The translations under genes were made by a program, and so were the position numbers. The notes beneath the pieces are model-generated. The model had not been told where the DNA came from. It was given only the letters and a program-made list of their open reading frames with translations, and did no database searches. DNA of 64,000 bases from an uncultured Schlesneria sp. (GTDB lineage: Bacteria > Planctomycetota > Planctomycetia > Planctomycetales > Planctomycetaceae), in contig CAIULL010000101.1 of the NCBI GenBank assembly GCA_903899985.1, forward strand, positions 1 to 64,000. The letters are read 5' to 3'. Below are positions 1,794-33,395 of this stretch, one piece after another (positions within the stretch are counted from its first letter, which is position 1; each line of letters begins with the position of its first letter).

Positions 1794-2636
1794 ATGGTTT
1801 CGATCGTCATTCCGGCTCATAACGAAGAGGCGACGATAGGTCGTTGTCTGAGCCGGTTACTCGGTGAGGGGTCTTCCGAATCCTTGCGGGTCGTTGTGGC
1901 TTGCAATGGGTGCAGCGACGGCACGGCGGAAGTCGCTCGAAAGTTTGGGGATCGCGTGACCGTGGTTGAGACAGATGTCGCATCCAAAGTCTATGCGATG
2001 AACCTGGGTGACGAAATCTCGGAGGGATTTCCTCGTTTCTATATGGATGCGGATGTTGTTCTTTCTCCGAATGATATTCGCGAAGTGGAGCGGACACTTG
2101 AGAGTGGGACGATATTGGCTGCGGCTCCTCGAATGCAAATGGATTTTTCAAACGCTTCCTGGGCTGTTCGAGCGTTTTATCGTGTCTGGATGGCCTTGCC
2201 TTATACTCGTGCCGGAATGATGGGTGTGGGGGTTTATGCGTTATCTGACGAAGGTCGACGTCGATTTGGCCGCTTCCCTGACATTATCGCGGACGATGGC
2301 TATATTCGCGTGTTATTCAAGCCGCATGAGCGAGCTGCTGTCGACGCTGCGAAGTCGATTGTCAAGGCCCCTTCGACGCTCGCCGGGTTGATCAAAATCA
2401 AGACACGTAGCCGACTTGGCGGATTCCAATTGGCGAAGTTGTATCCCGAATTAATGAGTAACGACGATAAGGACTATGGGGCGGCAATATGGGATATCCT
2501 GAAAAGGCCATCTCTCTGGCCGTGTGTGCCTGTCTATCTTTACGTGAACCTGACGGCCAAGCGACGTGCCCTGAGGCAACTTCGGCAACTCGATCAATAC
2601 GTGTGGGAACGAGATGAGAGTTCTCGTGCCGGTTGA
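1794..2636 (+). CDS. Glycosyltransferase family 2
   Basis: A 280-residue GT-A fold glycosyltransferase. The N-terminus has the hallmark VSIVIPAHNEE strand-loop that binds the nucleotide, followed by NGCSDGT, and the metal-binding DxD motif is D85-A-D87 in YMDADV. An acidic DDGY motif near residue 168 fits the catalytic-base region. There is no membrane segment in the N-terminal domain; a short hydrophobic stretch near residues 238-250 could associate with the membrane. It would transfer a sugar from a nucleotide donor during exopolysaccharide assembly in the cytoplasm. It is the first intact gene of the run up to 4206, with PssD- and PssE-like genes directly downstream, so the three are probably co-transcribed. 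Donor and acceptor cannot be read from sequence. Confidence 0.88.
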   Translation: MVSIVIPAHNEEATIGRCLSRLLGEGSSESLRVVVACNGCSDGTAEVARKFGDRVTVVETDVASKVYAMNLGDEISEGFPRFYMDADVVLSPNDIREVERTLESGTILAAAPRMQMDFSNASWAVRAFYRVWMALPYTRAGMMGVGVYALSDEGRRRFGRFPDIIADDGYIRVLFKPHERAAVDAAKSIVKAPSTLAGLIKIKTRSRLGGFQLAKLYPELMSNDDKDYGAAIWDILKRPSLWPCVPVYLYVNLTAKRRALRQLRQLDQYVWERDESSRAG

Positions 2637-2689
2637 TTGGCGTCCGGGGAAATGCATTTCAACCAAGAATCAATTCTGAGAATTTGGAA

Positions 2690-3175
2690 ATGACGGATAA
2701 GACAGCAAAGCAGCAGGTTGGTTTACAGCGTAAGAAAGTCCTGGCAATCGCTTCGCGAGGGGGGCATTGGATTCAATTATTACGGCTGCGTCCCGCGTTT
2801 AGCGACTGCGACGTGATGTTCGTGACGACGGATCCCGCTTACAAGACTATGGTTGACGGTGCAAAATTTTGTGTTGTCACGGAAGCAACCCGCTTTCAAA
2901 AGCTGAAAATCCTGAAGATGGCAGCCCAGATGTTCTGGGTGATCATTCGATTTCGACCAAACGTCGTGGTGACGACGGGAGCTGCGCCGGGCTACATTGC
3001 GATCCGGCTGGGGAAATGGTTTGGCGCAAAGACGCTTTGGATTGACAGCATTGCCAATGCTGAAGAATTATCGCTCTCTGGACGTCTCGCATCGAAATAT
3101 GCGGACACAACTTTGACACAGTGGGAACATCTTTCCGGCTCTGACGGCATCGATTATCACGGAGCCGTCATATGA
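2690..3175 (+). CDS. PssD/Alg14-like glycosyltransferase subunit
   Basis: A 161-residue protein similar to the Alg14/PssD/CpsF family. Visible marks are the N-terminal VLAIASRGGHWIQL loop, VVTTGAAPGY in the middle and an IDSIAN segment. In yeast and in polysaccharide loci, Alg14-type proteins are membrane-anchoring partners of a separate catalytic Alg13/PssE subunit, together forming one glycosyltransferase that adds the second sugar to a lipid-linked precursor. The next gene supplies the partner and overlaps this stop codon by 4 bases (ATGA), so translation is probably coupled. The ATG at 2690 is preferred over an in-frame TTG at 2633 that would overlap the previous gene; the extra residues do not look conserved. 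Confidence 0.85.
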   Translation: MTDKTAKQQVGLQRKKVLAIASRGGHWIQLLRLRPAFSDCDVMFVTTDPAYKTMVDGAKFCVVTEATRFQKLKILKMAAQMFWVIIRFRPNVVVTTGAAPGYIAIRLGKWFGAKTLWIDSIANAEELSLSGRLASKYADTTLTQWEHLSGSDGIDYHGAVI

Positions 3176-4206
3176 TATTTGTCACCGTCGGGAACATGGA
3201 CCCGTTCGATCGTTTGATCAAGGCGGTTGATCATTGGGTCTTAACAAATTCTCACAACGAGAAGATTTTCGCCCAAATCGGCGGTGGGCAGTACATTCCG
3301 TCGAATTGCGAGTACGTCAGGCGTCTGACGCCGGACGATTTCGAGAAGCGTTTCAGAGAGGCTCGCCTGGTCGTCTCGCACGCTGGAATCGGGACAATTA
3401 TCACCGCTCTGGAACTCGGAAAACCCATCATTGTTGTGCCGAAAAGAGCGTCTCTTGGCGAACAAAGGAATGAACATCAGCTCGCGACCGTCAGATGCTT
3501 CAAACGTTCGGAACTGATGATGGTTGCCGAATCGGAAGCTGATCTGATTGATATGCTCTCGCGATGGGATTCCAGAGTGATTCCGACGACGGAGCCGCCT
3601 GCCGATAATTTAAAAAAAGACTTATGGGAGCCTGACGAAAAATTGCTGAAGTACGTGAAAAACTTTGTTCAGGATCAGCCCCAATCGGGAATGATACTGC
3701 TCACGGTGGGTAACGAACCAATGGATCGGTTGGTCAAAGCGTTCGATGAATGGATCGGTTCGCGACAGGACATTCAAGTCAAAGGGGCGGTTGCCCAAAT
3801 CGCGAATGGTAGTTATGTGCCTAAGAATTGTGATTTCATCCGATATATGACACCGGCAGTGTATCGGCAAATGTTCGATCAAGCCGAGATCATCGTCGCG
3901 CATGCAGGGATTGGGACGATCATTACGGCGATGAACGCCAATCGACTGATTGTGGTGATGCCAAGGCAAGCAAGATTTGGGGAAACGCGTAACGATCACC
4001 AGTTGGCCACTGTAAGGCATTTTTCTCCTTCACCGCAACGGTTGATTGCCGAGTCGGAATCCGAATTGAGCGCAGTGCTTGACAGAGCGATAGAGATACA
4101 TCAGCGACAAGTAGCCGACTCAACTTTGTCAATTGCGCCGGCACAGCGGCCGCCCGATGAATCGTTGCTCAGTTTTTTACGGGACTTTGTTTCGAGTAGT
4201 TCCTGA
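3172..4206 (+). CDS. Double PssE/Alg13-like glycosyltransferase (tandem domain duplication)
   Basis: A 344-residue protein built from two homologous Alg13/PssE domains, residues about 1-165 and 174-340. Both begin with a hydrophobic strand and TVGN, have a central AHAGIGTII or SHAGIGTII donor-binding motif, then a basic patch (PKRASLGEQRNEHQLATV versus PRQARFGETRNDHQLATV). These are hallmarks of the GT28 C-terminal fold that binds UDP-sugars. Typical PssE proteins are about 160-170 residues with a single domain, so this is an in-frame fusion of two copies. The second half starts with an internal ATG at 3691. It overlaps the PssD-like gene by 4 bases. The expected role is catalytic partner of PssD in lipid-linked sugar transfer; whether both halves are active is unknown, though both keep the HAGIGT motif. 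Confidence 0.85.
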   Translation: MIFVTVGNMDPFDRLIKAVDHWVLTNSHNEKIFAQIGGGQYIPSNCEYVRRLTPDDFEKRFREARLVVSHAGIGTIITALELGKPIIVVPKRASLGEQRNEHQLATVRCFKRSELMMVAESEADLIDMLSRWDSRVIPTTEPPADNLKKDLWEPDEKLLKYVKNFVQDQPQSGMILLTVGNEPMDRLVKAFDEWIGSRQDIQVKGAVAQIANGSYVPKNCDFIRYMTPAVYRQMFDQAEIIVAHAGIGTIITAMNANRLIVVMPRQARFGETRNDHQLATVRHFSPSPQRLIAESESELSAVLDRAIEIHQRQVADSTLSIAPAQRPPDESLLSFLRDFVSSSS

Positions 4207-4317
4207 TTGCCGAATTGCGAATTTTTCAAGTAGCCAGTCTTCGAAGCGTTGCGTTATGACGACTGGTGGTTAAAACTGTTTTAATTGTGTCGTATTGTTC
4301 TTATTAGCGGGGGTTTT

Positions 4318-5217
4318 ATGCCGGGTAATCAAGAGCACCTTCGAAAAGGGATTATTCTCGCAGGGGGATCGGGAACTCGTCTTTATCCGGTAACGCATGT
4401 CGTCAGCAAACAATTGCTGCCGATCTATGACAAACCAATGATTTATTATCCGTTGTCGACGCTGATGCTCTCGGGGATGCGGCAGATTCTGATTATCAGC
4501 ACTCCGCAGGATCTTCCTCTTTTTCACCGACTGTTCGGGGATGGATCACAGTGGGGTTTGGAGTTGTCCTATGCCGAGCAACCACGGCCTGAGGGATTGG
4601 CCCAGGCTTTTATTATCGGTGCCCCATTTGTGGGCAAAGATTCGTCGTGTCTGATTCTCGGGGACAATATCTTCTACGGTCACGATCTCGCCGCCTCGCT
4701 GGAAGCCGCAGACAAACGTGTTGAGGGCGCAACGGTGTTTGCCTATCACGTTCAAGATGCTCGCAGCTATGGGGTGGTAGAGTTTGGAGTCGACGGGCAA
4801 GCGATTTCACTTGAAGAAAAACCACAGATACCGCGGTCTAACTACGCCGTCACCGGTCTTTACTTCTACGACAACGACGTCCTTCAAATCGCCAAAGAGC
4901 TGAAGCCCTCGGCAAGAGGGGAGCTCGAAATTACGGATGTCAACCGGGCCTATTTAAATTCTCGGCGGCTGCACGTGGAAATCCTCGGACGAGGTAGCGC
5001 TTGGCTCGATACTGGAACACACGATTCGCTACTTGACGCGGCAACTTTTGTTTCCGTGCTTGAGAACCGGCAGGGGCTGAAAATTGCTTGTCCAGAAGAA
5101 ATTGCCTGGCGAAATGGCTACATTGATTCTGAACACTTGTTGCGACTGGCTCACCCGCTGGCAAAGACAAATTACGGGCGTTACCTCATCAGTTTGGTGG
5201 AAGCGGGAAAGCGTTGA
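4318..5217 (+). CDS. rfbA: Glucose-1-phosphate thymidylyltransferase
   Basis: A 299-residue nucleotidyltransferase matching RfbA/RmlA in length and motifs. It has the signature [15 protein letters not shown] at the N-terminus, [18 protein letters not shown] after it, LGDNIFYG for the metal site, and [10 protein letters not shown] and [10 protein letters not shown] in the C-terminal half. It makes dTDP-glucose from glucose-1-phosphate and dTTP, the entry step for dTDP-deoxysugars. The ATG at 4318 follows a GGGGG stretch and gives the normal family length; an upstream in-frame start at 4285 would add 11 unconserved residues. RfbB (next pathway step) lies two genes downstream, while RfbC and RfbD are not in the window. 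Confidence 0.93.
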
Positions 5218-5289: not shown

Positions 5290-5394
5290 ATGGTTGAGAT
5301 CGAGTGCGTTCGCGAAACTCGATTGGATTGAATTCAAGATTTACGACACGATATTCGAGCGATTAACACATTTTAAGACAGACGCGAATTGATA

Positions 5395-6720
5395 ATGACC
5401 ACACATGGACTTGCAGAAAAGATCGCTGGAAAAACAGCATTAATCGGGGTCATCGGGTTAGGCTACGTAGGCCTGCCGTTGATCCGGGCGTTTGTTCGTT
5501 CTGGCTTTCATACGATGGGGTTTGATGTTGATCAGTCTAAAGTCGATAAACTGAAGGCTGGCCAGAGCTACATTAAACACATTGACAGTTCTGCAATTGC
5601 AGAGTTGATTCAGCAAAAGCGTTTTGAACCGACGTCCGACATGGGGCGACTGGGAGAGGCGGATTGCATCATTATCTGCGTACCGACGCCACTCAATGAA
5701 AGCCGAGATCCAGATCTCAGCTACATTGAGGGGACTGCCCATGCGATTGCAAAAACGCTGCGCCCGGGCCAGCTTGTTGTTCTTGAAAGCACAACTCATC
5801 CGACAACCACTCGCGAAAATGTGCTGCCGGTGTTGAATGCAACGGGACTCACCGCTGGAAAGGACTATTTCCTCGCATTCAGTCCAGAGCGAGAAGATCC
5901 TGGAAACCCCAACTTTGAAGCTTCGACAATCCCCAAAGTTGTTGGTGGCTACGACGCAACCAGTACTGATCTTGCGTGTGCGATGTACGAGCACGCGGTC
6001 GTGAAGGTTGTGCGCGTCTCAAGTATGGAGATCGCAGAAGCGGCTAAGATTTTGGAAAACACGTATCGCGCCGTGAACATCGCGATGGTCAATGAATTGA
6101 AGATGCTTTACGACAAAATGGGAATCGATGTCTGGGAAGTGATCGACGCCGCGAAGACAAAACCATTTGGTTTTCAGGCATTTTATCCTGGCCCCGGACT
6201 TGGCGGTCACTGCATTCCAATCGATCCGTTTTACCTGACCTGGCTTGCTCGAAAGTGGGGTGAGCAAACTCGATTCATCGAACTGGCAGGTGAGATCAAC
6301 ACATACATGCCAAACTATGTGATCAGTCAACTGGCTGAGTTTTTGAATGACGCTGGAAAGCCCATTAAGGGTAGTAAGATCGCGATCCTTGGTGCGGCCT
6401 ACAAAAAGGATGTTGACGATCCTCGGGAAAGCCCGACGTTCGAACTCATGAAATTGCTGATCAAGCGCGGTGCTGTGCTGAGCTACAACGACCCACACAT
6501 TCCGTCGCTGCCTAAGATGCGTCACTATCCAGATCTTCCTGAGATGGCAAGTCAGCCTTTGACATCTCAGTACCTCGCGGCTCAAGATTGTGTTCTCATT
6601 TCGACGGACCATTCTGCCTACGATCACGACTTCATCGTTGCACACAGCCGTATGGTGCTGGACACGCGAAACGCCACTAAAAATGTTAAGGTTGGGCGCG
6701 AGAAAATCTTCAAGGCTTAA
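5395..6720 (+). CDS. UDP-N-acetylglucosamine/-mannosamine-type 6-dehydrogenase
   Basis: A 441-residue nucleotide-sugar dehydrogenase of the UDPGDH superfamily. The NAD-binding loop is [12 protein letters not shown], followed by [17 protein letters not shown] and SPEREDPGN; the catalytic cysteine lies in [16 protein letters not shown], and the C-terminal UDP-binding domain begins near [18 protein letters not shown]. The ESTTHP and SPERxDPGN forms resemble the WbpA/VipA group that oxidises UDP-GlcNAc or UDP-ManNAc more than classical UDP-glucose dehydrogenase, but substrate is an inference. It supplies a uronic acid sugar for the polysaccharide. The ATG at 5395 is preferred over a TTG two codons upstream. 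The product of this gene and that of rfbB imply a heteropolymer with an acidic sugar and a deoxysugar. Confidence 0.9.
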
Positions 6721-6805: not shown

Positions 6806-7861
6806 GTGAAAATCCTCGTTACGGGTGGAGCTGGCTTTATTGGTTCTGCGGTCATTCGCCATTTAATTTCTGAGACACAACATTCGGTCGTCAATGTCGA
6901 CTGTTTGACGTACGCGGGGAATCTAAGCACGCTTGATTGTGTAAGTTCCAATGCGCGGTATTCGTTCGAGAAAGTCAATATTTGCGATTCGGTTTCTGTT
7001 CAGAACGTCTTCGAGCGACATCGACCGGATGCCGTGATGCATCTGGCTGCAGAATCACACGTTGACCGTTCGATCGACGGGCCTAGCGCGTTTATCCAAA
7101 CGAATGTTGTGGGGACTTATGTCATGCTGGAGGCGAGTCGACGGCATTGGCAGTCACTTGCGTTAGAGCAAAAAGAGAGTTTTCGGTTTCATCACATTTC
7201 CACCGATGAAGTCTATGGTTCGCTGGGTGACGAAGGATTGTTCACGGAACAGACTCCGTACGACCCAAGTTCGCCATATTCAGCGACTAAGGCTGCTTCT
7301 GATCATCTGGTGCGTGCATGGAACAGAACTTACGGTCTGCCGATTGTATTGACGAATTGTTCGAATAATTATGGGCCCTTTCAGTACCCCGAAAAATTGA
7401 TCCCGCTCACGATTACATCAGCGCTCGCGGGAAAGCCGCTGCCCGTTTATGGGAAAGGTGAAAACGTCAGGGACTGGCTATACGTCGATGATCACGCCAG
7501 GGCGCTTGTCGCGGTTCTCGAGCGCGGGCACGTCGGCGAAACATATAATATTGGTGGTAACAGCGAACGAAAGAATATCGATGTCGTTCGAGCAATCTGT
7601 GGATTAATGGACGAGCTCAGCCCAAATTCAACAAACCGCCCCCATGAAAAGCTGATCACATTTGTGACAGACCGACCCGGGCATGATCACAGGTATGCCA
7701 TCGATGCCAGCAGAATTCAACGTGATCTCGGATGGATGCCGGAAGAATCTTTTGCCAGTGGCTTGAAAAAGACTGTGCAATGGTATCTTTCGAATCAGGA
7801 GTGGTGTCGGCAGGCGATGGCAGACCGTTATGCCGGTGAACGATTGGGGTTGAAGAGTTAA
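6806..7861 (+). CDS. rfbB: dTDP-glucose 4,6-dehydratase (GTG start)
   Basis: A 351-residue extended short-chain dehydrogenase. The N-terminal [13 protein letters not shown] binds [13 protein letters not shown] carries the active-site Thr-Asp-Glu, and YSATKAASD gives the catalytic Tyr and Lys; [15 protein letters not shown] and RDWLYVDDH follow, all typical of RfbB/RmlB. It converts dTDP-glucose to dTDP-4-keto-6-deoxyglucose, the branch point for rhamnose and related sugars. The start is a GTG at 6806, because a good CAGGAG ribosome binding site lies at 6792-6797 and the NAD loop begins right after it. The frame stays open 216 bases upstream into the previous gene, which is not coding here. 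Since rfbC and rfbD are absent nearby, the final deoxysugar is not determined. Confidence 0.93.
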
Positions 7862-9901: not shown

Positions 9902-11356
9902 ATGGCTCTTTTTTCACGGTCGAATGTTTTTTGTGCGTTTCTTGTTTTACTGGTTTGTGCGCCGCTGGAAGCGCAGACGGGCAGCAATCCGATTGGCTGT
10001 GCTGTCCCGAAGCGACCAGTCCACATTTACTATGTTGATCCGATTAACGGGAGCATGAATGGAGATGGTTCAGCACAAAGGCCTTGGAGTACGTTAGCGG
10101 CTGTCGTCAGTGCCGGGTTGATTAATGGACAAAACAAAGCGAGTGGCGTTGTACACGCAGGCGACCTGATTTACCTGTTAAGCGGCGATCATGGTAGTGT
10201 GAATTTGAGTCAGTATACCGGTTCTTTCGTTAACACGGATTTTATCACGGTCCAAGCGGCACCTGGAAATACACCTGTGCTTGAGCAGTTAATCGCGACG
10301 GGGATCGCGAAATGGGTCTTCAGGGGATTGACAATTACCAATCCGAACGGACCTGCTAACGCGAGTAGTGTGTTTTTATCCAGGTTTTCCGCTTGTAATA
10401 ATATACTTTTTGATCGAAACACGATTTATTCCCAAGCGAATGTCAACAACTGGACACCAAGCGACTGGGCGGCCTTGTCATTCAGGGGTTTGGCCATTGA
10501 CGCAAATTCTGCGACGGTCACTAACAATATCGTGAAAAACGTACTCACGGGAATTGGTGTCAGCGGTGACGGGGTGATTTTTCGAGGCAACGTCGTTGAC
10601 TATTTCGCTGACGATGGAATCGACTTTCAAACGAGCAATTCAATACTTCAGTATAACGTCGTAACAAATCATTACGGGCAATGGAATAACGGGGGTCACC
10701 ATGACGGTATGCAAGGGTGGACGCTCACAAGTGATGTGTATAGTAACGTGTTGATCGACAGCAACTTCATTCTTGCCTCCACGGGGGCTTATCCGGCGAT
10801 TCCGCAGCCGACGGGTCTTGGGGACGATTATTTGCAGGGACTTTCGATTTTTGATGGAGATTGGAGTAATCTGACCGTGACCAATAACGTGGTTGGAGCG
10901 TGCGCGTACGATGGTCTGTCTCTGTACGGGATCGCAAACTCTGTCATTGAGAATAATACTGTGATCAATGTGGGGTCCGACCCGGATGCCCTGACTTGGT
11001 TAAAAGTGGGGGCGCAACCGGGGTATCCGGTCACGAACGTGACTGTTCGCAATAATATCGCAAACACGTTTCAATTGGACCGATCCGGCGGGGTGGTCGA
11101 TGACCATAACTTGACGTTTAACAATGGGTACGACAACATGTGGAGCAAGGTATCCACGAATTTGTTTGTTGCTGACCCGACGACAGTTTTCGTGCAATAT
11201 CATCCGGCGACAAGCACCTTTGATTTTAATCTCATCAAGGGAAGCCCCGCAATTGGTGCCGGCACTGCGACAAATGCGCCCACGCTTGATATTCTGAAGA
11301 GGACACGAAACCCACTGAGTATCGATATCGGTGCTTATATGTATGTCGGAAACTAA
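9902..11356 (+). CDS. Secreted right-handed parallel beta-helix protein
   Basis: A 484-residue protein with a signal peptide (hydrophobic residues about 9-21, likely cut after LEAQ). After it comes YYVDPINGSMNGDGSAQRPW, the opening seen in many parallel beta-helix proteins (pectate-lyase-like, DUF1565-type). The body has repeated short strands with Asn ladders, such as VTNNIVKN, FRGNVVDYFADDG, VTNNVVGACAYDGLSLYG and VRNNIANTF, and the end has GSPAIGAGT and DIGAYMY typical of this fold. Members include polysaccharide lyases and mannuronan epimerases as well as non-catalytic adhesins. The gene lies between two halves of a polysaccharide locus, so acting on that polymer outside the cell is plausible. 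The start is well set by AAGGA at 9891-9895. No catalytic residues can be assigned. Confidence 0.82.
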   Translation: MALFSRSNVFCAFLVLLVCAPLEAQTGSNPIGCAVPKRPVHIYYVDPINGSMNGDGSAQRPWSTLAAVVSAGLINGQNKASGVVHAGDLIYLLSGDHGSVNLSQYTGSFVNTDFITVQAAPGNTPVLEQLIATGIAKWVFRGLTITNPNGPANASSVFLSRFSACNNILFDRNTIYSQANVNNWTPSDWAALSFRGLAIDANSATVTNNIVKNVLTGIGVSGDGVIFRGNVVDYFADDGIDFQTSNSILQYNVVTNHYGQWNNGGHHDGMQGWTLTSDVYSNVLIDSNFILASTGAYPAIPQPTGLGDDYLQGLSIFDGDWSNLTVTNNVVGACAYDGLSLYGIANSVIENNTVINVGSDPDALTWLKVGAQPGYPVTNVTVRNNIANTFQLDRSGGVVDDHNLTFNNGYDNMWSKVSTNLFVADPTTVFVQYHPATSTFDFNLIKGSPAIGAGTATNAPTLDILKRTRNPLSIDIGAYMYVGN

Positions 11357-11568
11357 AAGGTGTGAAATCCGCAAGACCAGGTGTCTGTGCCATTTGAATT
11401 GAGGCGGTCTTGCGGGCTGGAAAAAGGTGATCCACGTATGAGAATCGGAAGCCGCCCCTGAGGAATTTGTTGGAAGACGACCAGAAGTTGACTGCACCTT
11501 ATGGGTGTGTTAGACCAATGGAAGGGACTCGGGAAGCGGCGGGGCGGGTAGGCCGATGTAAGGCGTGG

Positions 11569-13947: not shown

Positions 13948-14019
13948 CCGTTTTTTTGCTGAGATTTCATCTCAGCAAGACCTGTGTGGTATGAGTCGCC
14001 GTCAGCAGCAATTGAAATC

Positions 14020-15291
14020 ATGCTTAAAATCAACCGCAGAACATTTTTGAAAGGAGCAGGCATTTCGATCGCGTTGCCTCTCCTCGAGTCACACCGTCGT
14101 TTTCGAGCTGCAGACAGTCCGGAGCAACCCCGTCGGAGAATGGTGTTAATTGATTTCGGTCTGGGGCTGCATGCCCAGAATCTATTCCCGAAGAAAGCTG
14201 GATTTGATTACGAGTCGACCCCCTACCTGGACGTTTTGAGGAATTTCCGTAAGGACCTTACGGTGATCTCTGGCGTTTCACATCCCGATGTGGATGGTGG
14301 TCATTTTGCAAGGAAATCCTTTCTGACTGCTGCGCCGAAGCCAATTAGCTCGGGCTTTAAGAACTCAATTTCCGTGGATCAAAGAGCGGCAGAGCATCTT
14401 GGACACCAAACTCGGTTTCGATCGCTAACGCTGACGATGACCCCGGATTCAGGGCTGTCGTATTCACGCAGCGGTGTCGAAGTCCCGGCCGAAAGCAGGC
14501 CATCGCGGCTTTTCGTTAAGCTGTTCCTCAATGGGAATGCTCAGGAAAAGCAAAAACGGATTCAACAGCTCAGGGATGGGCGGAGTGTTATGGATACCGT
14601 TCTGGATCAGGCTCGTGTCTTGCGAAACCGACTTGGTTCAGCCGATGGAGAAAAGCTCGACCAGTATCTCACTGCGGTCCGTGAAACCGAACAATCGCTT
14701 AACAAATCGGAAGCATGGGAGTTCAGGCCCAAGCCGACTGTCGATGTCAACGCACCTGAGGATATCAACAATCAGGCGGACATTGTCGGGCGCGAAAGAT
14801 TGATGTATCAGATGATGCATCTCGCGATTCAGACAGACTCCACTCGCGTTATCACATTCTACAACCCTGGCATCAACGCAGTTCCATTGATTGCGGGAGT
14901 GACTCAGGATTACCACAATTTGTCACACCATGGGCAAGATCCTGCACGATTGGCCGAATTGAAGATTATTGAACTGGAGCAGCTGAAACTGTTTGCTGAG
15001 TTTCTCGAGAAACTTGCTGCGACACAGGAAGACGGGCGGACTTTGCTCGACGCGACAATGGTCATGCTTGGCTCAGACCTGGGAAATGGCAGCAGTCACG
15101 ACAACCACAACTTGCCAATTATTCTGGCGGGCGGCGGCTTCCGTCACGGACAGTACCTCGCGTTTGACGAGAGAAAAAACTATCCGCTGGCCAACTTGTT
15201 CGTATCGATGCTTCAGCGACTTGGGTTGGAGTCTGACAAATTCGGTTCGAGTACCGGCGCGATGAAGGGGCTCGATGTGATTGGCTCCTAG
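14020..15291 (+). CDS. DUF1552 protein with Tat signal
   Basis: A 423-residue member of DUF1552, the family that almost always follows DUF1592-type cytochromes in planctomycetes. The N-terminus, INRRTFLKGAGISIALPLLE, is a twin-arginine (Tat) signal, so the protein is exported folded, probably with a bound cofactor or metal. Later marks are SGVSHPDVDGGH near residue 85 and GSDLGNGSSHDNHNLPIILAG near residue 355, resembling the alkaline-phosphatase-like fold of the related DUF1501 family. Function is unknown; pairing with a periplasmic cytochrome suggests an oxidative or hydrolytic step on an extracellular substrate. The ATG at 14020 is chosen because it places the RR motif at residues 6-7. Confidence 0.88.
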   Translation: MLKINRRTFLKGAGISIALPLLESHRRFRAADSPEQPRRRMVLIDFGLGLHAQNLFPKKAGFDYESTPYLDVLRNFRKDLTVISGVSHPDVDGGHFARKSFLTAAPKPISSGFKNSISVDQRAAEHLGHQTRFRSLTLTMTPDSGLSYSRSGVEVPAESRPSRLFVKLFLNGNAQEKQKRIQQLRDGRSVMDTVLDQARVLRNRLGSADGEKLDQYLTAVRETEQSLNKSEAWEFRPKPTVDVNAPEDINNQADIVGRERLMYQMMHLAIQTDSTRVITFYNPGINAVPLIAGVTQDYHNLSHHGQDPARLAELKIIELEQLKLFAEFLEKLAATQEDGRTLLDATMVMLGSDLGNGSSHDNHNLPIILAGGGFRHGQYLAFDERKNYPLANLFVSMLQRLGLESDKFGSSTGAMKGLDVIGS

Positions 15292-17176: not shown

Positions 17177-17270
17177 CCGATGATCAGTTTATTTTGAATT
17201 TGTATTGGTTCAGTGAGTTTGGGATTCGACTTTTGCCGTGTTGTTCGTCGTCAAATGAGGACTTTTGCAA

Positions 17271-19705: not shown

Positions 19706-19839
19706 GCTTTTCCCACGTTATTCAGTCCCGGGTTTTGCTGAGATTCCAAAAATGACACGGGCAGTGTGTCCTGTGACTTTTAGAACTCACAGTGTCCTTG
19801 AGAAGTTTTTCGCATTCGATTCTTTATACGGAGCTAAAC

Positions 19840-20553: not shown

Positions 20554-20609
20554 GTCAAGATCTTGTTTTCGTGAAATCCCTTCAATATTTGTTTTTTTGG
20601 TCTCCTTCC

Positions 20610-24956: not shown

Positions 24957-25178
24957 ACAGGACGTGTGGTAAGTTGCGATTGCAGTTTTTGACCGAATGT
25001 CGATTCAATTTTCAGGTTGTGAACCTGGCATGTATTTCACGTAAAGAGTGTTTTGCCGGGAAAGCCCATCCGTCATGTTTTAATCGTTTTTTTTCCGTGT
25101 TAAATCAACGACTGTTCTGCAGAACATGTTTTGTTCCCGAGCCGTATCCGGGCCTGTAAGGTTTTTGTGGCTTTCATG

Positions 25179-28100
25179 ATGCCAAAAGTAAATGTTAAAC
25201 CGCTGTTGATTCTGACCGTCACAATATTGATTTTGTGTTTGATCACATTTGGCATTCACGAATTTCAAATGTCACGGAATTCATCGGCGTACATTCGAGA
25301 AGCCAAACGGGCCCAGGCGGAAAATCGCCTCGGGGCCGCAGCATCTCATCTGATGCGTTACACGATGCTCAACCCCAATGATGTCGAGGGCTTGAAGCTT
25401 TTCGGGATGACGCTGGCCGAGATCGGAAAGACACATCCGATGCAGCTACAGGCTGCGTACGTCACCCTGCAAAAAGCGATCGGAATCGAACCTGGCAATG
25501 TTGAAGTCCGTCGAAAATTAGCAGAATTGGCAGCCCATAACGGACTGTTTGCCGAGGCGATCGACAACATCAACTATTTATTAAAAGATTTCCCTGACGA
25601 TATTGATCTGCTTGACCTGTTGAGCGACTGTCATGTGCTTCGAGGGGATTACAACGAGTCGGAAGCCTTGCTTGAATCCACGATTACAAAAGCACCTGAT
25701 CGGCTTGCGCTTTATTTGAAACTGGCCAATTTGCGACAACTGAAATTGAACCGCCCGGGAGATGCAGTACTTCCGGTCAATCAGATGGTTGCCGCGAATT
25801 CCGAGAATCCGATGGCCTATTTCAGTCGGGCCGAGTGGCTGTTAGAGCGGTTGAATGAACTGAAGAATTTAGCTCGCTCAAATCGTGAAAAAGTGCAGGA
25901 ATCTGCTGCAGAACTTTTAAAGCAGGCGGACGCTGACACGCAAGAGGCTTTAAAACGGGCACCTGACGATATCGAAATGATTGTGCTCGCCATTCGCATT
26001 GCCTTCGAGCAGGGTCGAAAGGACGAATTGCGCGCTCTGGCGATACAAGGGGTCGAACAACATCCGAAAGATCCTCGCTGTTACCTCGCCATTTCGGAGT
26101 TGGAAAAGAGCGTTTCGAACAACGCCGCTTCAATCAGCATCTTGAATCAAGGTGTTGCTGCAATTCCTGATGATCAGCAATTGAGATGGGCGTTGGCAGA
26201 TGTCCTGATTGATAGTGGAGCGTATAGCGACGCGAAAAATCAAATTGCGAAATTGGGAAAAGTTGATTTTCCGGACGTGCTGGTGCAATTTCTCGAAGCA
26301 AAAATCTCGATTTTTACTCGAGACTGGCTGGTTGGGATTCGTCAACTTGAGTCTCTTCGTCAGCAGTTGCGTGATAAATCCGATTTGATGAAGCAGGTCG
26401 AGCTCTGGCTTGGGTATGCCTATCGCGAAACGAAATCGTACGACCAGCAATTAATTTGCTTCCGTCGCGCTGTCGCGCTCGACCCCAGTTATCTTCCTGC
26501 ACGATTTGCGCTGGCAGAAACGCTGATGAATGGAAACAATCTTCCTGAAGCGATCAGTGAATTCGAGCAAATCTATTCTGTTCCGTCGTCGCCAGCGTCG
26601 GCCTCAGTCGGGCTTGCAAAATGCATCCTTCTCTGGAATCTTGATAATCCTGTCCGTTTACATCGTTGGGATGTCTTTGAGCGGGCATTAAGTCAGCTTG
26701 AGCAATCTGAGTTGCCTCCTGCGATTTGGGCTCAGATTGCCATCCTTCGCATGGAAAGGCTGGTGAGTGCTTCCAAGCGTGACGAAGCGGTGAAAATTAT
26801 TTCTGCGGCACGGGAAAAGTTTCCCGACGAGATCGAGTTATGGACGGCACAGATTGCTTTGGCGCAAGTGGCCAAGGACACCGAACGCTGCGATGAACTA
26901 TTCCAGGAAGCGCAACTTCGGTTCGGCGATACGGTCAGTCTTCGAGAATTAAGAGGAAGGTACCTCATCCAGCAGAAAGGGGCAAAGTGTATCGATGAAC
27001 TGCAGAAGCTGGCAATCGAAAGCCCCTCGTGGAGCAATGCGGATCGAGCCAAGTTTGCAGGTTCGCTGGCGTCTCAATTTCTTGCCGTCGGCGATTTGGA
27101 GAACGCAGCAAAACAGGGGCTGATTGCCAGCCAGGCAGAGCCCACAAACATGACGATTCGACTGGTTTTATTGGATATCGCCGTCGAAGCGAAGCGTGCC
27201 GAGCTGATGCAGCAAGTTCTTGACGAATGTCGAAAAATTGCGGGCGAAGGGGCAATCTGGCATTTTGGAACGGCGCTGTTACTGACAAAAGTTCGTGAGG
27301 CGGACAATCAGGCGCTGCTCGATGGCCTGTCGCATCTGAGAAAAGCGAGAGTCTTAGCCCAGTCGTGGGGGCGTGTTCCCCTTTTGATGGCCTCTCTGTA
27401 CGAACGGCTGGGGGACCAGAAGTCCGCGGTCGACCAATTCGTTGAAGCGGTTCGATTGGGCGAGCGAAGTCCGGCGGTAACAAGCCACACATTGTCGATG
27501 CTGTTCAATGCACGACGGTTTGAAGAGGCTGAAAATTTAATCAAGCAGTTGCGCGAGACACAGAGTACTTTTACCAGTGAGATGGCACAGACAGAAGTTG
27601 ATATCGCACTTCAGCTCGGTCGGGTGGACGCCGCGATTCAAGCAACCGAGCAGCTTGTTCGGAACTCAAAGGATGTCGTGGATCCTGTCTGGCTGGGTCG
27701 GGTGTACGGGTCACTCGGGAAGTATCCGCAGGCGGAAGCGCAGTTTCGACGGGCGATTCAGTTGGATGGGAAAAAATCGACCGCTTGGATCAATCTGGTG
27801 AAGGTTTTGATGCTGTCAAAACAGCCCAATGCAGCGTTGAAGGTCATTGACGATGCCAAGGGGGCGATCGAAGAGGAACGTTCTGCACTTGCTATTGCGT
27901 TTTGCTATGAGTTAGCTGGCAAGGGGGACCTTGCTTTGGCGACCTACCAGTCTGCCTTCGAAAAATCACCAGAAGACGTCGCGGTTGGTCTTGCGCTCGT
28001 TGACTTTCTGTTGAAAACAGGAGCGACGCAAGATGCCGAAGGCGTTTTGAGGAAATTGGTGAAATCGAGCAGTGGTGAGGACGAAAAAAGTCAAAATCAG

Positions 28101-29489
28101 CGGCGTTTGGTCTACAGAAAGCTGGCCAATATTCTGATTAACGCTGGTGGTCAAGACCGGTTAAACGAAGCTTTGTCTCTCGTGGAACGTAATATTGGTA
28201 ACGGTAGTTCGGTCTCTGTCGAGGATTTCCGGCTGAAAGCGATCATCCTGGCGAATGGGCCGACGGCGTCGCAACATGAACAGGCCGTGGCGATTCTCGA
28301 GAAAATTTTGCAGAGCGCTCCCGGAAATTCACAGTTAGCTGATGATCAGTTTCTGCTGGCGCGTCTTTATCTTCAAGCGGGTGATCGGATCAATGCCCGA
28401 AGTCAATTGCGAAAGCTGATCGGGTCGAACAAGAGTGAGGCTCGCTTTATTCTGGCTTATGCCCAGCTTTGTCTCCAGTCTGACGAGCCGACCGAGGCAG
28501 AACTGTATTTATCATTTTTGCAGAAGTTGGCACCGAATGAACTTTCGACGATTGACCTGGAGGCTCAGGTCTTATTCGCCAAAGGACGCTATTCTGAGAT
28601 CAGTTCTCTGTTAAAAGGTTTGAATTCGGGTCGTTTTCAGGATTCAACGAAAACTGAAACTGCCGTGGCCGCCAGGTTGTGGGCCGCCAAGCGACTTGAA
28701 GAATTCTCGCGACGGCTGGAAAAGATGGGAGAAACGGCAGAATCAGCGACTATTTCACGTGACGCCGAAGAGTTGTATGCAAAATATGTGAAAGATCGGC
28801 CCGAGGAAATGCTGGTTTTTGCCGAGTTTCTCGGAAAAGAGAACCAGGTTGATCGTGCGCTGGATCTGCTGCAGGAGCATGGTCCGAAAGCAAAGGTTTT
28901 CCGAGTGGCCAGCGTGGTATTGGCCATCATGAAGAATACCTACACGACGCCAGTCCAACTGGCTCGACTCCAGGAAATGGTGAAGTCTCTGTCATCAAAT
29001 GTCGAGGATCGGACGATTTTTGACATTCTGTCTGCAGATCTTTTGAGTTGGCGTGGTGAGTACAAGGAGGCGGCCTCATTATACAAGGGTATTCTGAGGA
29101 AGGATGAACGCGATGTTCGGGTTCTCAATAACCTTGCGGTTCTTTTGGCTCTCACTGGAGACGACTATAAGGAGGCCGAGCGTCTGTTGAAGAAAGCGAT
29201 CGAGATCGCGGGCCCATTGGACGCGCTGCTTGATTCGTCCGGGATTGTCAAACTCGCCTCGGGTCATCCTGAGACCGCAATCGTTGACTTTGAGAAGGCT
29301 CTCCAGCAACGTGAATCGGCGGAGCGTCGTTTTCACGCTGCGGCGGCCTACACTAAGCTGAAACGATATGACGCCGCCAGGAAGTCGCTCGAACGGGCTG
29401 ACAAATTACAGTTGTCTGATCAAGAGCTTCACCCGCTTGAGCGTCCCACTTTGAAGAGCATCCGCGTCGAGCTTCAAGAGCAATCTTAG
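25179..29489 (+). CDS. Giant TPR-repeat membrane-anchored protein, paralogue 2
   Basis: A 1,436-residue protein that is collinear with the preceding gene over its full length, including the membrane helix, the FQMxRNxSxYxRxAKRAQ motif just after it, and the C-terminal LNNLAVLLAL and SGxVxLAxGHxETAI blocks. The two are therefore products of a tandem gene duplication. They have clearly diverged, so the duplication is old or under different selection. The start could be the ATG at 25176 or 25179, or a GTG at 25167 that has AAGG at a better distance (25158-25161). Role is expected to be like that of paralogue 1: a scaffold for polysaccharide assembly or PEP-CTERM processing in the periplasm. They may form a heteromer. 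Confidence 0.85.
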   Translation: MPKVNVKPLLILTVTILILCLITFGIHEFQMSRNSSAYIREAKRAQAENRLGAAASHLMRYTMLNPNDVEGLKLFGMTLAEIGKTHPMQLQAAYVTLQKAIGIEPGNVEVRRKLAELAAHNGLFAEAIDNINYLLKDFPDDIDLLDLLSDCHVLRGDYNESEALLESTITKAPDRLALYLKLANLRQLKLNRPGDAVLPVNQMVAANSENPMAYFSRAEWLLERLNELKNLARSNREKVQESAAELLKQADADTQEALKRAPDDIEMIVLAIRIAFEQGRKDELRALAIQGVEQHPKDPRCYLAISELEKSVSNNAASISILNQGVAAIPDDQQLRWALADVLIDSGAYSDAKNQIAKLGKVDFPDVLVQFLEAKISIFTRDWLVGIRQLESLRQQLRDKSDLMKQVELWLGYAYRETKSYDQQLICFRRAVALDPSYLPARFALAETLMNGNNLPEAISEFEQIYSVPSSPASASVGLAKCILLWNLDNPVRLHRWDVFERALSQLEQSELPPAIWAQIAILRMERLVSASKRDEAVKIISAAREKFPDEIELWTAQIALAQVAKDTERCDELFQEAQLRFGDTVSLRELRGRYLIQQKGAKCIDELQKLAIESPSWSNADRAKFAGSLASQFLAVGDLENAAKQGLIASQAEPTNMTIRLVLLDIAVEAKRAELMQQVLDECRKIAGEGAIWHFGTALLLTKVREADNQALLDGLSHLRKARVLAQSWGRVPLLMASLYERLGDQKSAVDQFVEAVRLGERSPAVTSHTLSMLFNARRFEEAENLIKQLRETQSTFTSEMAQTEVDIALQLGRVDAAIQATEQLVRNSKDVVDPVWLGRVYGSLGKYPQAEAQFRRAIQLDGKKSTAWINLVKVLMLSKQPNAALKVIDDAKGAIEEERSALAIAFCYELAGKGDLALATYQSAFEKSPEDVAVGLALVDFLLKTGATQDAEGVLRKLVKSSSGEDEKSQNQRRLVYRKLANILINAGGQDRLNEALSLVERNIGNGSSVSVEDFRLKAIILANGPTASQHEQAVAILEKILQSAPGNSQLADDQFLLARLYLQAGDRINARSQLRKLIGSNKSEARFILAYAQLCLQSDEPTEAELYLSFLQKLAPNELSTIDLEAQVLFAKGRYSEISSLLKGLNSGRFQDSTKTETAVAARLWAAKRLEEFSRRLEKMGETAESATISRDAEELYAKYVKDRPEEMLVFAEFLGKENQVDRALDLLQEHGPKAKVFRVASVVLAIMKNTYTTPVQLARLQEMVKSLSSNVEDRTIFDILSADLLSWRGEYKEAASLYKGILRKDERDVRVLNNLAVLLALTGDDYKEAERLLKKAIEIAGPLDALLDSSGIVKLASGHPETAIVDFEKALQQRESAERRFHAAAAYTKLKRYDAARKSLERADKLQLSDQELHPLERPTLKSIRVELQEQS

Positions 29490-30313: not shown

Positions 30314-30877
30314 ATGAGCAGGCTAACCGTCATTCGCCGCAGTCTTCTAGCAATCAGCACACAGTGCTGTTTGTTGGTTGTGGTGTTTGCTGGATTGGTT
30401 GCTCCTTCCGATTCCGCCGCTGCCGCGATGATGTTGTCTGATCAGACTGTCAGTTCTGCTCAGATGCTCAGTGCGATTGAAGGTGGCGATAGTCAGTTGG
30501 GCGGTTTGTCGGTTTGGTACGACGTTGCTCTTTCTGATGCGAATGGGCCTTCGGCTTCAGGTGCTGGTTCGAGGCGTGGTAATTCACGTTCGAGTGGCAT
30601 GATGGCGAGCGGTACGGATTTAGTTGAAGAAGATCCAGTCTTGAGTTTGCTCGCCAATCTAAATCGTGCGTTCATCTCAACTGTGAGCAGCGATTCTGGT
30701 TCAGGTTTGGCTTCGGGTGTTTCATCAGCTGCTCAGGGTGGTTTGTCAGTGGCAGCGATTCTGGTTCCGCAAATGCGGTTTCCGGTTCCTGTTTTAAATC
30801 AGTTTTGGCGGGGGGCAAAATTTCTGTTTGTGCCTTCTGTCGTTCCGGATGAATTGTTAAGACCGCCGCAAATTTAG
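30314..30877 (+). CDS. Small secreted protein of unknown function
   Basis: A 187-residue protein with a clear signal peptide (hydrophobic residues about 17-31, then SAAAA, likely cleavage near residue 38). The mature part is Ser/Gly/Ala-rich with a low-complexity segment, GSGLASGVSSAAQGG, and ends with a hydrophobic/proline region (LVPQMRFPVPVLNQFW, then PDELLRPPQI). No family is recognised. It lacks a PEP-CTERM tail. It stands just ahead of the PEP-CTERM gene in a locus of surface-polymer genes, so it may be a matrix or envelope protein. The ATG at 30314 is preceded by AAGAAG at a reasonable distance. Codon use is similar to that of neighbours. Confidence 0.7.
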   Translation: MSRLTVIRRSLLAISTQCCLLVVVFAGLVAPSDSAAAAMMLSDQTVSSAQMLSAIEGGDSQLGGLSVWYDVALSDANGPSASGAGSRRGNSRSSGMMASGTDLVEEDPVLSLLANLNRAFISTVSSDSGSGLASGVSSAAQGGLSVAAILVPQMRFPVPVLNQFWRGAKFLFVPSVVPDELLRPPQI

Positions 30878-31035: not shown

Positions 31036-31788
31036 ATGAATCTCATGCAAAATGCTCGTCGAATTGGTTTGGTTGGTTTGGTTCTCGTTGGAAGCTCGGT
31101 TTCGGCATTCGCTGACACCATTCTTCAGTGGAGCACTCAGACGGCAACCGGTACTACCGCTGTTAGCCCATTCACGACCGCTACCACAAGCGCAACCAGC
31201 AGCTTTACTGGTGGTGCTGGTACCGAAATTTCGGCTTCAGGTGTTCTGCTTCGCGGTGCGACAGACGTCAATGGTAACCCTATTACCGCTTATTTGACGT
31301 TCGACCTCAAGTCAACTGATGCTGCCACCACAACGACGGTTGGTTCGAACACGAACATCAGCCAGGACTACGAAGGTACGTTCTCGATTACGAGTGCTGC
31401 CAGTGGTGGAACCGTACTGGTTGCAACGACCGACATCGGTGGTGCAGTTGTTGCTCGTGCTGGTGCTACCAGTTTCAACCTGAACACTTACAACAACACC
31501 ATTGCTGACTTCACCGGATCGTTGATCACCGGCCCGAACCCAGCTTATGTTGCTCCATTCGGCCTTGACTTGAACCTTTACCGAGTCACCAATTTGACCA
31601 CCACCACGGTCAATGGTGTCAAGACCGTTAGTTTCAGCCCATCGAACATCGGTACCGGCCGTGTTGACGCTACTCCTGGAACTCCTTCAGCTGTTCCAGA
31701 ACCTTCAACGTTCGCGTTGTTGGGCTTGGGTGTTGCTGGCTTGGCCGTTGGTGCTTACCGACGACGCAAGGCTGCTGCTGCCGTCTGA
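31036..31788 (+). CDS. PEP-CTERM sorting-domain protein
   Basis: A 250-residue secreted protein with a signal peptide ending near AFADT (residue 27) and a classic PEP-CTERM tail: VPEPSTFALLGLG, then a hydrophobic helix and the basic end YRRRKAAAAV. The tail is the recognition site of exosortase, encoded at 16214. The mature body is rich in Thr, Ser, Gly and Asn and looks like a beta-sandwich structural protein; no catalytic motif is seen. Codon use is strongly biased (mostly GGT, ACC, AAC, CGT or CGA), unlike the flanking genes, which suggests high expression. AAAGG at 31024-31028 is the ribosome binding site. A strong terminator follows at 31826. Confidence 0.95.
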   Translation: MNLMQNARRIGLVGLVLVGSSVSAFADTILQWSTQTATGTTAVSPFTTATTSATSSFTGGAGTEISASGVLLRGATDVNGNPITAYLTFDLKSTDAATTTTVGSNTNISQDYEGTFSITSAASGGTVLVATTDIGGAVVARAGATSFNLNTYNNTIADFTGSLITGPNPAYVAPFGLDLNLYRVTNLTTTTVNGVKTVSFSPSNIGTGRVDATPGTPSAVPEPSTFALLGLGVAGLAVGAYRRRKAAAAV

Positions 31789-31825
31789 TTTTCAGATTGT
31801 GGTGAGTAGTTAATTCGCTTAAAAG

Positions 31826-31860
31826 GAAGCCGCTCGGAAACGAGCGGCTTCTTTTGTTTT
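31826..31860 (+). terminator. Strong intrinsic terminator after the PEP-CTERM gene
   Basis: GAAGCCGCTCG and CGAGCGGCTTC form an 11-bp perfect stem closed by a GAAA tetraloop (31826-31851), followed by TTTTGTTTT. It lies 37 bases after the PEP-CTERM stop and ends immediately before the next start codon at 31862. Confidence 0.92.
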
Positions 31861-31861
31861 G

Positions 31862-32605
31862 ATGATTGTGATTTTAATCGGCGTATTTCAAACAGTGACA
31901 GGTTCATGGTTCATGCAGAGCGAAACAGGCGGGACACGATCGATCATTGCTTACGTGGCGCCGCTGGCCTGCTATATGATCCCGACGATGTTCGAAGCAT
32001 CGAATCTGTTTGGTTTAAGCTATGAATCGGCCTGCACTTTAAAAGGGGTACTGGCGATAGGTGCCTTCTGGGTGTTTCACCGGCATTATCCCGCGTATTC
32101 GACGGCCGGTTTTCGACTGGCGGTGATTGCAGGCTTTTTGGGAATGATTGTCTGGGTCGGGCTCGATCGGCTTCAAGCGAGTTTGCCTGCACTGCAGCGA
32201 GTCGTACAGATGATTCAGGGAAGCCGTGTTGGATACGATCCTTTTGCGAACGGTGGGCCGTCAGCCTTGCAGGTGGCCTTTGTGATTGTCAGACTGGTGG
32301 AATTGACGATCATCGTTCCATTGATTGAAGAAATTTTCTGGCGAGGTTTCTTGTCACGTTTTCTGATTGCTGAAGATTTTGAGAAAGTGGAACAAGGAAC
32401 GTATACTCTTTTTAGCTTCTTCATCGGAGCTGTCATGTTTGCCTCGGCCCATACAGAGGTCATCTCGGCGATCGTCTGGTGTTCGATCATCAACGCGCTT
32501 TACGTGAAGACGAGAAATGTCTGGGCTTGCGTGATGATGCATGCTGTCACAAATGGTCTCCTGGGTGTCTATATTCTCATGACAAAGGAATGGCATCTTT
32601 GGTAG
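31862..32605 (+). CDS. CPBP (CAAX-type) intramembrane glutamic protease, exosortase-associated
   Basis: A 247-residue polytopic membrane protein with the three conserved CPBP motifs: E156-E157-I-F-W-R161 (EExxxR), H197 in ASAHTE, and H227-A-V-T-N231 (HxxxN). These form the catalytic site of Rce1-like glutamic proteases. A CAAX protease-related subgroup is known to accompany PEP-CTERM/exosortase systems, and its place here supports membership. It may clip remaining C-terminal tails after exosortase action, or process another membrane peptide. No ribosome binding site precedes the ATG at 31862, because the upstream terminator hairpin ends next to it. A downstream start (GTG at 31868 or ATG at 31913) would cost part of the first helix. 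Confidence 0.85.
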   Translation: MIVILIGVFQTVTGSWFMQSETGGTRSIIAYVAPLACYMIPTMFEASNLFGLSYESACTLKGVLAIGAFWVFHRHYPAYSTAGFRLAVIAGFLGMIVWVGLDRLQASLPALQRVVQMIQGSRVGYDPFANGGPSALQVAFVIVRLVELTIIVPLIEEIFWRGFLSRFLIAEDFEKVEQGTYTLFSFFIGAVMFASAHTEVISAIVWCSIINALYVKTRNVWACVMMHAVTNGLLGVYILMTKEWHLW

Positions 32606-32717
32606 GTCATTGTTTAATGCTGGCTTTTGTCGAAAAATCGTGGTATTTCTGGTGGTGAACGTTTCGATACCATCAGAAAATCAGAATCAATTCTTCGCTT
32701 ATTCCAGGACATTTCGA

Positions 32718-33395
32718 GTGGAATCTGTGGCGGCATACCTGCTGATGACAAATGTCTCTCATCGCGAGTGGCAAGCCCCGGTTTTTGAGCATTCGCAGGT
32801 CATCGGTCGACTTCCTGACTGCGATATTGTCATTCCGGAAGAGCATCTTCATGTTTCTCGCCATCACGCCGAAGTCGGATGTGATAAGGATGGGCTATGG
32901 ATTCAAGACTTGGGATCTTCGGGAGGGACTCAATTGAACGGAGTTCCGCTTGTTCGGGAAACCAAGACCAGGGCGGAAATCGGTGATCGTGTTTCGCTCG
33001 GCGGATTAGAGCTTTATTTCGTGTCGCCGGATGCCAGTATTCTTGAGGAATCGATCGACTCAGAGGGGGAAGAAAGGAAGACGAAAAAGACGGTTCAGTT
33101 TACGGCGAAATCGATAAAAACCGTTGGCGACGTGCGTCTCGCCAGCTTAAGCCCTGCCGAACTGGAAATTGTCCGTTGGATTTGCCGCGGACTGACCACT
33201 TTTGAAGAGATCGGGCGAAAACTTTTTCGCAGCCCGCATACGGTTCGAACTCAGCTTGGGAGCGTTTTCAAGAAGCTGGACGTGCATTCACGTGAACAGC
33301 TACTCGCGCTGATGCGAAAGTGCGAGATTGCCTGGACGCAACCCGAATCGAATTCAGCGGATGACACGATCGGGCCGGTCAAATCTGATTCTTGA
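32718..33395 (+). CDS. FHA domain-LuxR/GerE helix-turn-helix regulator
   Basis: A 225-residue fusion (with GTG start at 32718). An FHA domain occupies about residues 15-95, with VIGRLPDCDIVIP, VSRHHAEV and IQDLGSSGGTQLNG, the Arg/Ser/His/Asn set that binds phosphothreonine. A GerE-type DNA-binding domain follows at about 140-195 (LSPAELEIVRWICRGL, then HTVRTQLGSVFKKLDVHSREQL). There is no receiver domain. So the protein probably reads threonine phosphorylation, by a Ser/Thr kinase, and acts on promoters directly. The start is chosen by CAGGA at 32705-32709; the frame is open upstream to 32610. It lies last in the exosortase block and may regulate it. Its partner kinase is unknown; a PknB-like kinase is encoded at 60751. 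Confidence 0.85.
   Translation: MESVAAYLLMTNVSHREWQAPVFEHSQVIGRLPDCDIVIPEEHLHVSRHHAEVGCDKDGLWIQDLGSSGGTQLNGVPLVRETKTRAEIGDRVSLGGLELYFVSPDASILEESIDSEGEERKTKKTVQFTAKSIKTVGDVRLASLSPAELEIVRWICRGLTTFEEIGRKLFRSPHTVRTQLGSVFKKLDVHSREQLLALMRKCEIAWTQPESNSADDTIGPVKSDS

Follow-up and report, generated by a model that had tools for sequence, protein, structure and literature searches.

An exopolysaccharide-linked PEP-CTERM/exosortase locus in a Schlesneria-level gene arrangement

Gene content of the island

The first 64 kb of contig C101 (74,104 bases), from the 8.0-Mb genome of an uncultured Schlesneria sp. (coded G000 here), form the window of this study, and within it genes for exopolysaccharide (EPS) synthesis, an exosortase, a Wzc-like protein, EpsI, two giant TPR proteins, a PEP-CTERM protein, a CPBP protease and an FHA-LuxR regulator share some 32 kb, which we call the island. 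A sequence-only reading of the window had proposed that these genes make up one composite surface-polymer and protein-sorting system. Matches to family profiles confirm that all of them, together with a beta-helix gene, lie on the plus strand (to which the coordinates below refer unless otherwise stated) and close to where that reading had placed them, and they bear out an EPS-linked PEP-CTERM/exosortase system, of a kind that is already known.

The exosortase (16214..17176) passes the curated cut-offs of the EpsH family (PF09721, 191.9 vs 25.7; TIGR02602, 136.4 vs 105.55), and reaches the cut-off of no named subclass, the best scores being those for XrtD (159.4 vs 400), XrtW (145.7 vs 425) and XrtA (139.7 vs 208). 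Its Cys, Arg and His are invariant in all 31 sequences compared, the latter two being, we assume, invariant residues of exosortases. The open reading frame (ORF) opens at 16019; since G001, G004 and G005 have stops in frame upstream of 16214, and since a conserved leader (block B, 16108..16213) directly precedes that position, the gene probably starts at 16214 and not at 16019.

Downstream follow a Wzc-like chain-length regulator or tyrosine autokinase (17265..19661; AAA_31), which falls narrowly under the polysaccharide tyrosine autokinase cut-off (TIGR01007, 105.0 vs 108.05), and EpsI (DUF3485; 19792..20478), with a PF11984 score of 79.1 and a marginal pass of TIGR02914 (43.9 vs 42.8). The two giant TPR proteins, TPR1 (20571..24956) and TPR2 (25131..29489), are tandem paralogues (about 1000 bits against each other) of some 1450 amino acids, each with a hydrophobic stretch at its N-terminus; both are PrsT-like and both miss the PrsT equivalog cut-off (TIGR02917, 217.3 and 186.9 bits vs 312.2). 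The sequence-only reading had not listed the next gene (30314..30877), here named U187, which encodes a small protein whose N-terminus resembles a signal sequence and which matches no Pfam or NCBIfam family; relatives occupy the same place in G001, G004 and G005, with a weak one in G002, and its C-terminal part is well conserved in four of five relatives.

The PEP-CTERM protein (31036..31788; PF07589, 31.0 vs 20.7; TIGR02595, 22 vs 16) is a likely substrate of the exosortase. Beside it lies the gene of a CPBP glutamic intramembrane protease (31859..32605) that passes the equivalog cut-off of TIGR03008, 'pepcterm_CAAX' (131.1 vs 81.05), with the motifs EExxxR, H and HxxxN invariant in all 17 sequences compared. 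The FHA-LuxR (GerE) regulator (32715..33395; PF00498, 59.3 vs 20.7; PF00196, 41.0) probably starts at GTG 32715, the position from which the sequence is conserved and at which the frame of G002 opens. Its FHA residues GR, SxxH and NG, which we take to be those that bind phosphothreonine, are invariant in eight of eight orthologues.

The EPS block begins with a GT2 glycosyltransferase (1794..2636; PF00535, 52.5 bits), followed by a PssD/Alg14-like glycosyltransferase subunit (2633..3175; PF08660, 35.7 bits; NF041549 PssD 76.5, below the cut-off of 110) and a gene with two fused tandem copies of a PssE/Alg13-like subunit in one ORF (3172..4206; two stretches each for PF04101 and for NF041548 PssE, the latter at 185.7 vs 120). 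A similar long form of this gene is present in G004 and a single-length form in G012. Then come a sugar nucleotidyltransferase, presumably of the RmlA type (4285..5217; PF00483, 257.6 bits), a member of the UDP-glucose/GDP-mannose dehydrogenase family (5389..6720; PF03721/PF00984/PF03720) and an RmlB-type dehydratase (6806..7861; PF16363, 303.4 bits, from ORF residue 76). The ORF of the last opens at 6590 with a spurious N-terminus, family matches beginning at residues 74-76, and its probable start near 6806 was placed by eye. Between the EPS block and the exosortase lies the gene of a right-handed beta-helix protein, probably secreted (9902..11356; PF13229, NF041518); a similar gene lies upstream of the exosortase in G001, G004 and G005.

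Conservation of gene order within and beyond the genus

Relatives of the exosortase were found (E <= 1e-10) in 34 of 59 genomes, our own included, and in six of the 15 Schlesneria genomes: G000, G001, G002, G004, G005 and G012. The order exosortase-Wzc-EpsI-TPR1-TPR2 is kept in five of these six loci, G012 having one TPR gene. Since the G000 genome yields a single exosortase match (E <= 0.001) in its 8.0 Mb and this gene order recurs in five of six loci, the island appears to be more than a product of chance. One may still ask whether unrelated envelope genes have piled up by chance over all 32 kb, and the island does include unrelated genes, namely a PSD/DUF1592 and HXXSHH/DUF1552 pair (Pfam; 11467..15291, genes at 11467 and 13984); yet the order is kept across Schlesneria and partly across the class, and we regard such a pile-up as extremely improbable. 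The sequence-only reading had rightly seen the DUF1592/DUF1552 pair as an interruption: of the six loci, those of G000 and G001 alone have it here, and the pair, to judge from the gene order, is an insertion outside the sorting system. A weaker-matching pair is found in G014, on the opposite strand, upstream of the CPBP gene.

The run continues without a break through U187, the PEP-CTERM gene, CPBP and FHA-LuxR in G000 and G002. In G001 the island is split at contig ends between TPR2 and U187, and these ends (L035 and L135) share an exact overlap of 141 bp; this is consistent with, though not proof of, adjacency through a repeat, and is probably an assembly overlap. The break in G005 falls at the PEP-CTERM gene, with no overlap between the contig ends. 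The EPS block precedes the exosortase in G000, G004 and G012. None was seen in the 19 kb before the G002 exosortase, and the contigs of G001 and G005 are too short to tell.

Outside Schlesneria, where 28 genomes matched, we compared 25 windows, each holding the best-matching exosortase locus of one genome; G024, G044, G055 and further exosortase places in the included genomes were left out of this set. Also outside the comparison are the exosortase stretch L225 of G173 and two Schlesneria genomes, G010 and G011, in which PF09721 matches larger exosortases. Wzc adjoins the exosortase in all six Schlesneria loci and in 20/25 of the other windows, an EpsI match is present in 14/25, and a giant TPR gene in 11/25, lying within 5 kb of the exosortase in 10/25. 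In 25 control windows around TIGR03008 genes a TPR gene was found once and Wzc never, in about half as much sequence (427,264 vs 881,306 bases); because the exosortase windows hold more sequence, the comparison of 11 with 1 is biased, and the count within 5 kb is the fairer one. The core shared across the class is thus exosortase-Wzc, which a giant TPR gene often accompanies.

The TPR pair and a CPBP gene next to the exosortase were each found in none of the 25 windows, and FHA-LuxR in one. The sequence-only reading had proposed, as a test of one system, to see by synteny whether the TPR pair, the CPBP protease and FHA-LuxR are kept beside the exosortase in planctomycetes. The outcome is mixed: a giant TPR gene does recur near the exosortase in the 10 windows just mentioned, but the TPR pair and CPBP do not recur there, and FHA-LuxR occurs in only 8 of the 170 genomes surveyed below. 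To speak of a planctomycete version of the system was therefore too wide: with the pair in 5/6 Schlesneria loci and in none of the 25 other windows, and with this distribution of CPBP and FHA-LuxR, the arrangement is one at the level of Schlesneria, and the island is a known kind of system in that arrangement.

PEP-CTERM proteins and the TIGR03008 protease

Besides its single exosortase, the G000 genome has 67 PEP-CTERM matches above the family cut-off, one of them a frame of 49 amino acids at a contig start, and the PEP-CTERM gene of the island is therefore one of many likely substrates. Across the family we surveyed 170 genomes from 58 genera (TIGR03008 at E <= 1e-20, exosortase at E <= 1e-15, PEP-CTERM at E <= 0.003 with at most 47 candidates scored per genome, FHA-LuxR at E <= 1e-20). 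Exosortase was found in 82 genomes, PEP-CTERM in 88 and TIGR03008 in 42, and PEP-CTERM matches were present in 71/82 genomes with an exosortase vs 17/88 without.

TIGR03008 carriers, which belong to 13 of the 58 genera, have PEP-CTERM matches in 40/42 cases, vs 88/170 overall, and an exosortase in 36/42. The median number of PEP-CTERM matches in genomes that have any is 11 with TIGR03008 (n=40) and 3.5 without it (n=48). The two carriers lacking such matches are G010 and G066; the former carries a fusion of exosortase E with TIGR03008, and the latter a TIGR03008 frame of 627 amino acids. Fusions of this type are found in G010, itself a Schlesneria (L094:10001-11680), and in another planctomycete, G015 (L097:9986-11707), with TIGR04162 scores of 209.4 and 211.6 bits vs 150. 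If four long TIGR03008 frames are left out, as being fusions of the exosortase-E type (G010 and G015, where the fusion is shown, and G066 and G067, by open-frame length only), PEP-CTERM is present in 38/38 carriers.

TIGR03008 could instead be a membrane protease of general function, found together with PEP-CTERM because the sampled genera share ancestry and not for a functional reason; in favour of this, the counts are uncorrected for phylogeny, and many of their rows come from a few heavily sampled genera. We consider it quite unlikely, given that the carriers are spread over 13 genera, that the exosortase E fusion is a physical link, and that the six Schlesneria with a stand-alone TIGR03008 (G000, G001, G002, G004, G005 and G014) are exactly the six with at least 21 PEP-CTERM matches. 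G012, with an exosortase and FHA-LuxR, has three PEP-CTERM matches and no TIGR03008.

No gene keeps a fixed distance from TIGR03008 in more than a few genomes outside Schlesneria; in G169 the gene directly before TIGR03008 encodes a giant TPR protein. Four genomes (G014, G075, G128 and G175) have one stand-alone TIGR03008 each and 22, 2, 21 and 27 PEP-CTERM matches, with no exosortase at E <= 1e-15, a threshold that may overlook short subclasses. G142 resembles them, but also has a long TIGR03008 frame, probably an exosortase-E fusion. Such genomes raise the idea, which we hold to be doubtful, that the stand-alone TIGR03008 protein might be a dedicated PEP-CTERM peptidase, acting as a second sorting or tail-clearing enzyme alongside the exosortase and, in some planctomycetes, in its absence; the survey threshold misses known exosortase-E proteins (4e-9 and 7e-14), which weighs against an exosortase-independent role.

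Distribution of the FHA-LuxR regulator

A profile built from eight orthologues, with 17 candidates scored per genome, finds FHA-LuxR in 8/170 family genomes, from 2/58 genera, and seven of these eight have an exosortase. The two genes lie within 20 kb of each other in G000, G002, G012 and G022, in three arrangements, and contig ends obscure their distance in G001 and G005. In G022, FHA-LuxR lies between two exosortase genes of the same contig. Among the titles and openings of abstracts listed, none describes an exosortase locus with a regulator of the FHA-LuxR type.

Transcription units and regulatory sequence

Between the PEP-CTERM and CPBP genes lies a hairpin resembling an intrinsic terminator (31822..31855), with a stem of 15 pairs and a T-rich tail, which the sequence-only reading had not listed; a strong hairpin is present at the same place in all six of G000, G001, G002, G004, G005 and G014. 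Because of this conserved terminator and of a gap of 824 bp between TPR2 and U187, a single operon was rejected for the downstream half, and the island genes are predicted to form several transcription units.

Upstream of the exosortase there is a second conserved block, A (15741..15777), which, like block B, was found in G000, G001, G004 and G005 but in neither G002 nor G012. A riboswitch in the exosortase leader was considered and rejected, there being no Rfam match.

Upstream sequence was taken from 30 of the 67 PEP-CTERM genes (the 30 loci with the best scores and the gene of the window, less one near-duplicate) and compared with 99 other upstream regions, whose G+C content is 0.499 vs 0.471 in the PEP-CTERM set. 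The best 6-mer, CAGAAA, occurs in 11/30 vs 8/99 (p 1e-4, uncorrected for the thousands of words compared). The scores of an expectation-maximisation (EM) motif search fell within the spread of six shuffled sets for each width, and at width 12 below all six, and sigma-54-like sites were found in 4/30 vs a shuffled mean of 3.65. With a position weight matrix (PWM) for the first 18 bases of block A, the median score was 9.3 in PEP-CTERM upstreams, 6.7 in the others (p 0.0008; the background set is richer in G+C) and 7.1 in Markov-shuffled sequences, only 2/30 exceeding the shuffled top 1%; for the full 37 bases there is little signal (medians 1.2, 0.7 and 1.2, respectively). These 18 bases may be taken as a weak lead to a regulon motif, and none of these searches gave a convincing promoter motif common to the 30 PEP-CTERM upstreams. 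The suggestion that the system has its own regulation stays conjectural, given this result and the conserved terminator before CPBP-FHA-LuxR.

A putative sorting locus

We consider it likely that the island is an EPS-linked PEP-CTERM/exosortase sorting locus of Schlesneria, in which the CPBP protease and the FHA-LuxR regulator also have their parts. Its sugar genes would make a polymer, probably with glucuronate, as the PssD/PssE-like transferases and the UDP-sugar dehydrogenase suggest, and the Wzc-like protein, from its family, would set the chain length. The PrsT-like TPR pair may serve as an anchored scaffold. The single exosortase and EpsI would cut the tails of the roughly 67 PEP-CTERM proteins that the genome encodes at scattered places, and these proteins would then stay at the surface or in the matrix. 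The TIGR03008 protease, in view of its co-occurrence with PEP-CTERM and of its natural fusion to exosortase E, could act within the membrane on the same tails or their remnants. Finally, FHA-LuxR, whose putative phosphothreonine site is intact, might couple Ser/Thr-kinase signalling to transcription of the locus. We favour this scheme because of the family matches, the presence of one exosortase and 67 PEP-CTERM matches in the genome, the conserved gene order, the co-occurrence of PEP-CTERM with exosortase and of TIGR03008 with PEP-CTERM, the exosortase E fusions, the conserved residues and the proximity of FHA-LuxR to the exosortase.

Several observations weigh against it. In G004, CPBP and FHA-LuxR are apart from the exosortase: TPR2 is followed by spermidine synthase, metallo-beta-lactamase-like, oxidoreductase and DUF1501 genes, and a different contig carries U187-PEP-CTERM-CPBP-FHA-LuxR, preceded by alkaline-phosphatase-like, ABC-transporter and two unassigned genes. 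G014 has PEP-CTERM-CPBP-FHA-LuxR with no detected exosortase. Four remoter relatives of FHA-LuxR (L141-L144, 37-40% identity) have no exosortase in the fetched flanks, which extend at most 10 kb per side, so that a link at 15-20 kb could escape; all four genomes contain an exosortase, the best matches for L142, L143 and L144 being on contigs of different length. To these must be added the lack of CPBP next to the exosortase outside the genus, the conserved terminator, the absence of a convincing common promoter motif and the lack of phylogenetic correction in the co-occurrence counts.

One may accordingly consider that only exosortase-Wzc-EpsI-TPR takes part in sorting, and that PEP-CTERM-CPBP-FHA-LuxR is a separate small module that is now adjacent to it in Schlesneria. 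The two halves on different contigs in G004, with unrelated flanking genes, the module without a detected exosortase in G014, the terminator and the lack of linkage between TIGR03008 and the exosortase outside the genus (25/25 windows) would all fit such a history. Against this, a PEP-CTERM gene is part of the downstream module itself, TIGR03008 and PEP-CTERM occur together across the family, and in G012 and G022 FHA-LuxR lies within 20 kb of an exosortase without TIGR03008. We thus find two separate modules a somewhat unlikely explanation, and prefer that of one sorting locus.

Relation to known systems

The PEP-CTERM/EpsH system, the PrsT TPR proteins, fusions of EpsH with CAAX proteases and the invariant exosortase Cys were described in 2006 (Haft et al., PMC1569441). 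The island resembles that system in its exosortase, the many PEP-CTERM proteins encoded genome-wide, the EPS genes and the TPR protein; it differs in having an FHA-LuxR regulator, two TPR genes and an exosortase below the cut-offs of the named subclasses, and no PrsK/PrsR pair was seen among the scanned island genes, the rest of the genome not having been searched for it. The additions that the sequence-only reading had singled out, namely the TPR, CPBP and LuxR-type genes, are present, but are not new in kind, with precedents in PrsT, TIGR03008 and EpsA. The CPBP protein passes TIGR03008, a family that also occurs fused to exosortase E (TIGR04162), whereas here it stands alone beside a PEP-CTERM gene. 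It is also comparable to the myxosortase MrtX, which sorts MYXO-CTERM proteins (PMC11980579) and is likewise a glutamic intramembrane protease of the CPBP type that carries EExxxR and HxxxN and has a link to C-terminal tags; however, MYXO-CTERM tags have an invariant Cys, and the island protein misses the Mrt-family cut-offs. The regulator shares with EpsA (TIGR03020, an XrtB/PEP-CTERM-associated regulator) a GerE-type domain and the association with an exosortase, but it has an N-terminal FHA domain and scores 33.9 bits vs a cut-off of 170, in the GerE part only.

Elsewhere, prsT is required for floc formation, in which a PEP-CTERM gene is also involved (PMC9850573), a PEP-CTERM gene lies near EPS genes in the planctomycete Stieleria (PMC7293339), and a cyanobacterial exosortase is needed for motility and biofilms (PMC12188702).

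The comparison separates the shared from the local parts of planctomycete protein sorting. With the core already known, the parts worth following are the companionship of TIGR03008 with PEP-CTERM, which is genome-wide and may reflect a second processing enzyme, and FHA-LuxR, a regulator specific to its lineage and a candidate for controlling the sorting of surface proteins through phosphothreonine. The question is testable in a strain reported to have been isolated and sequenced, Schlesneria sp. DSM 10557 (taken as G002; chromosome of 7,067,087 bp, PMC11812302), where the run from exosortase to FHA-LuxR is contiguous.

Downstream genes

Beyond the island, on the minus strand, the window contains flagellar-type genes at 36533-41322. 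From their translations we take these to be FliI-, FliG- and FliF-like.

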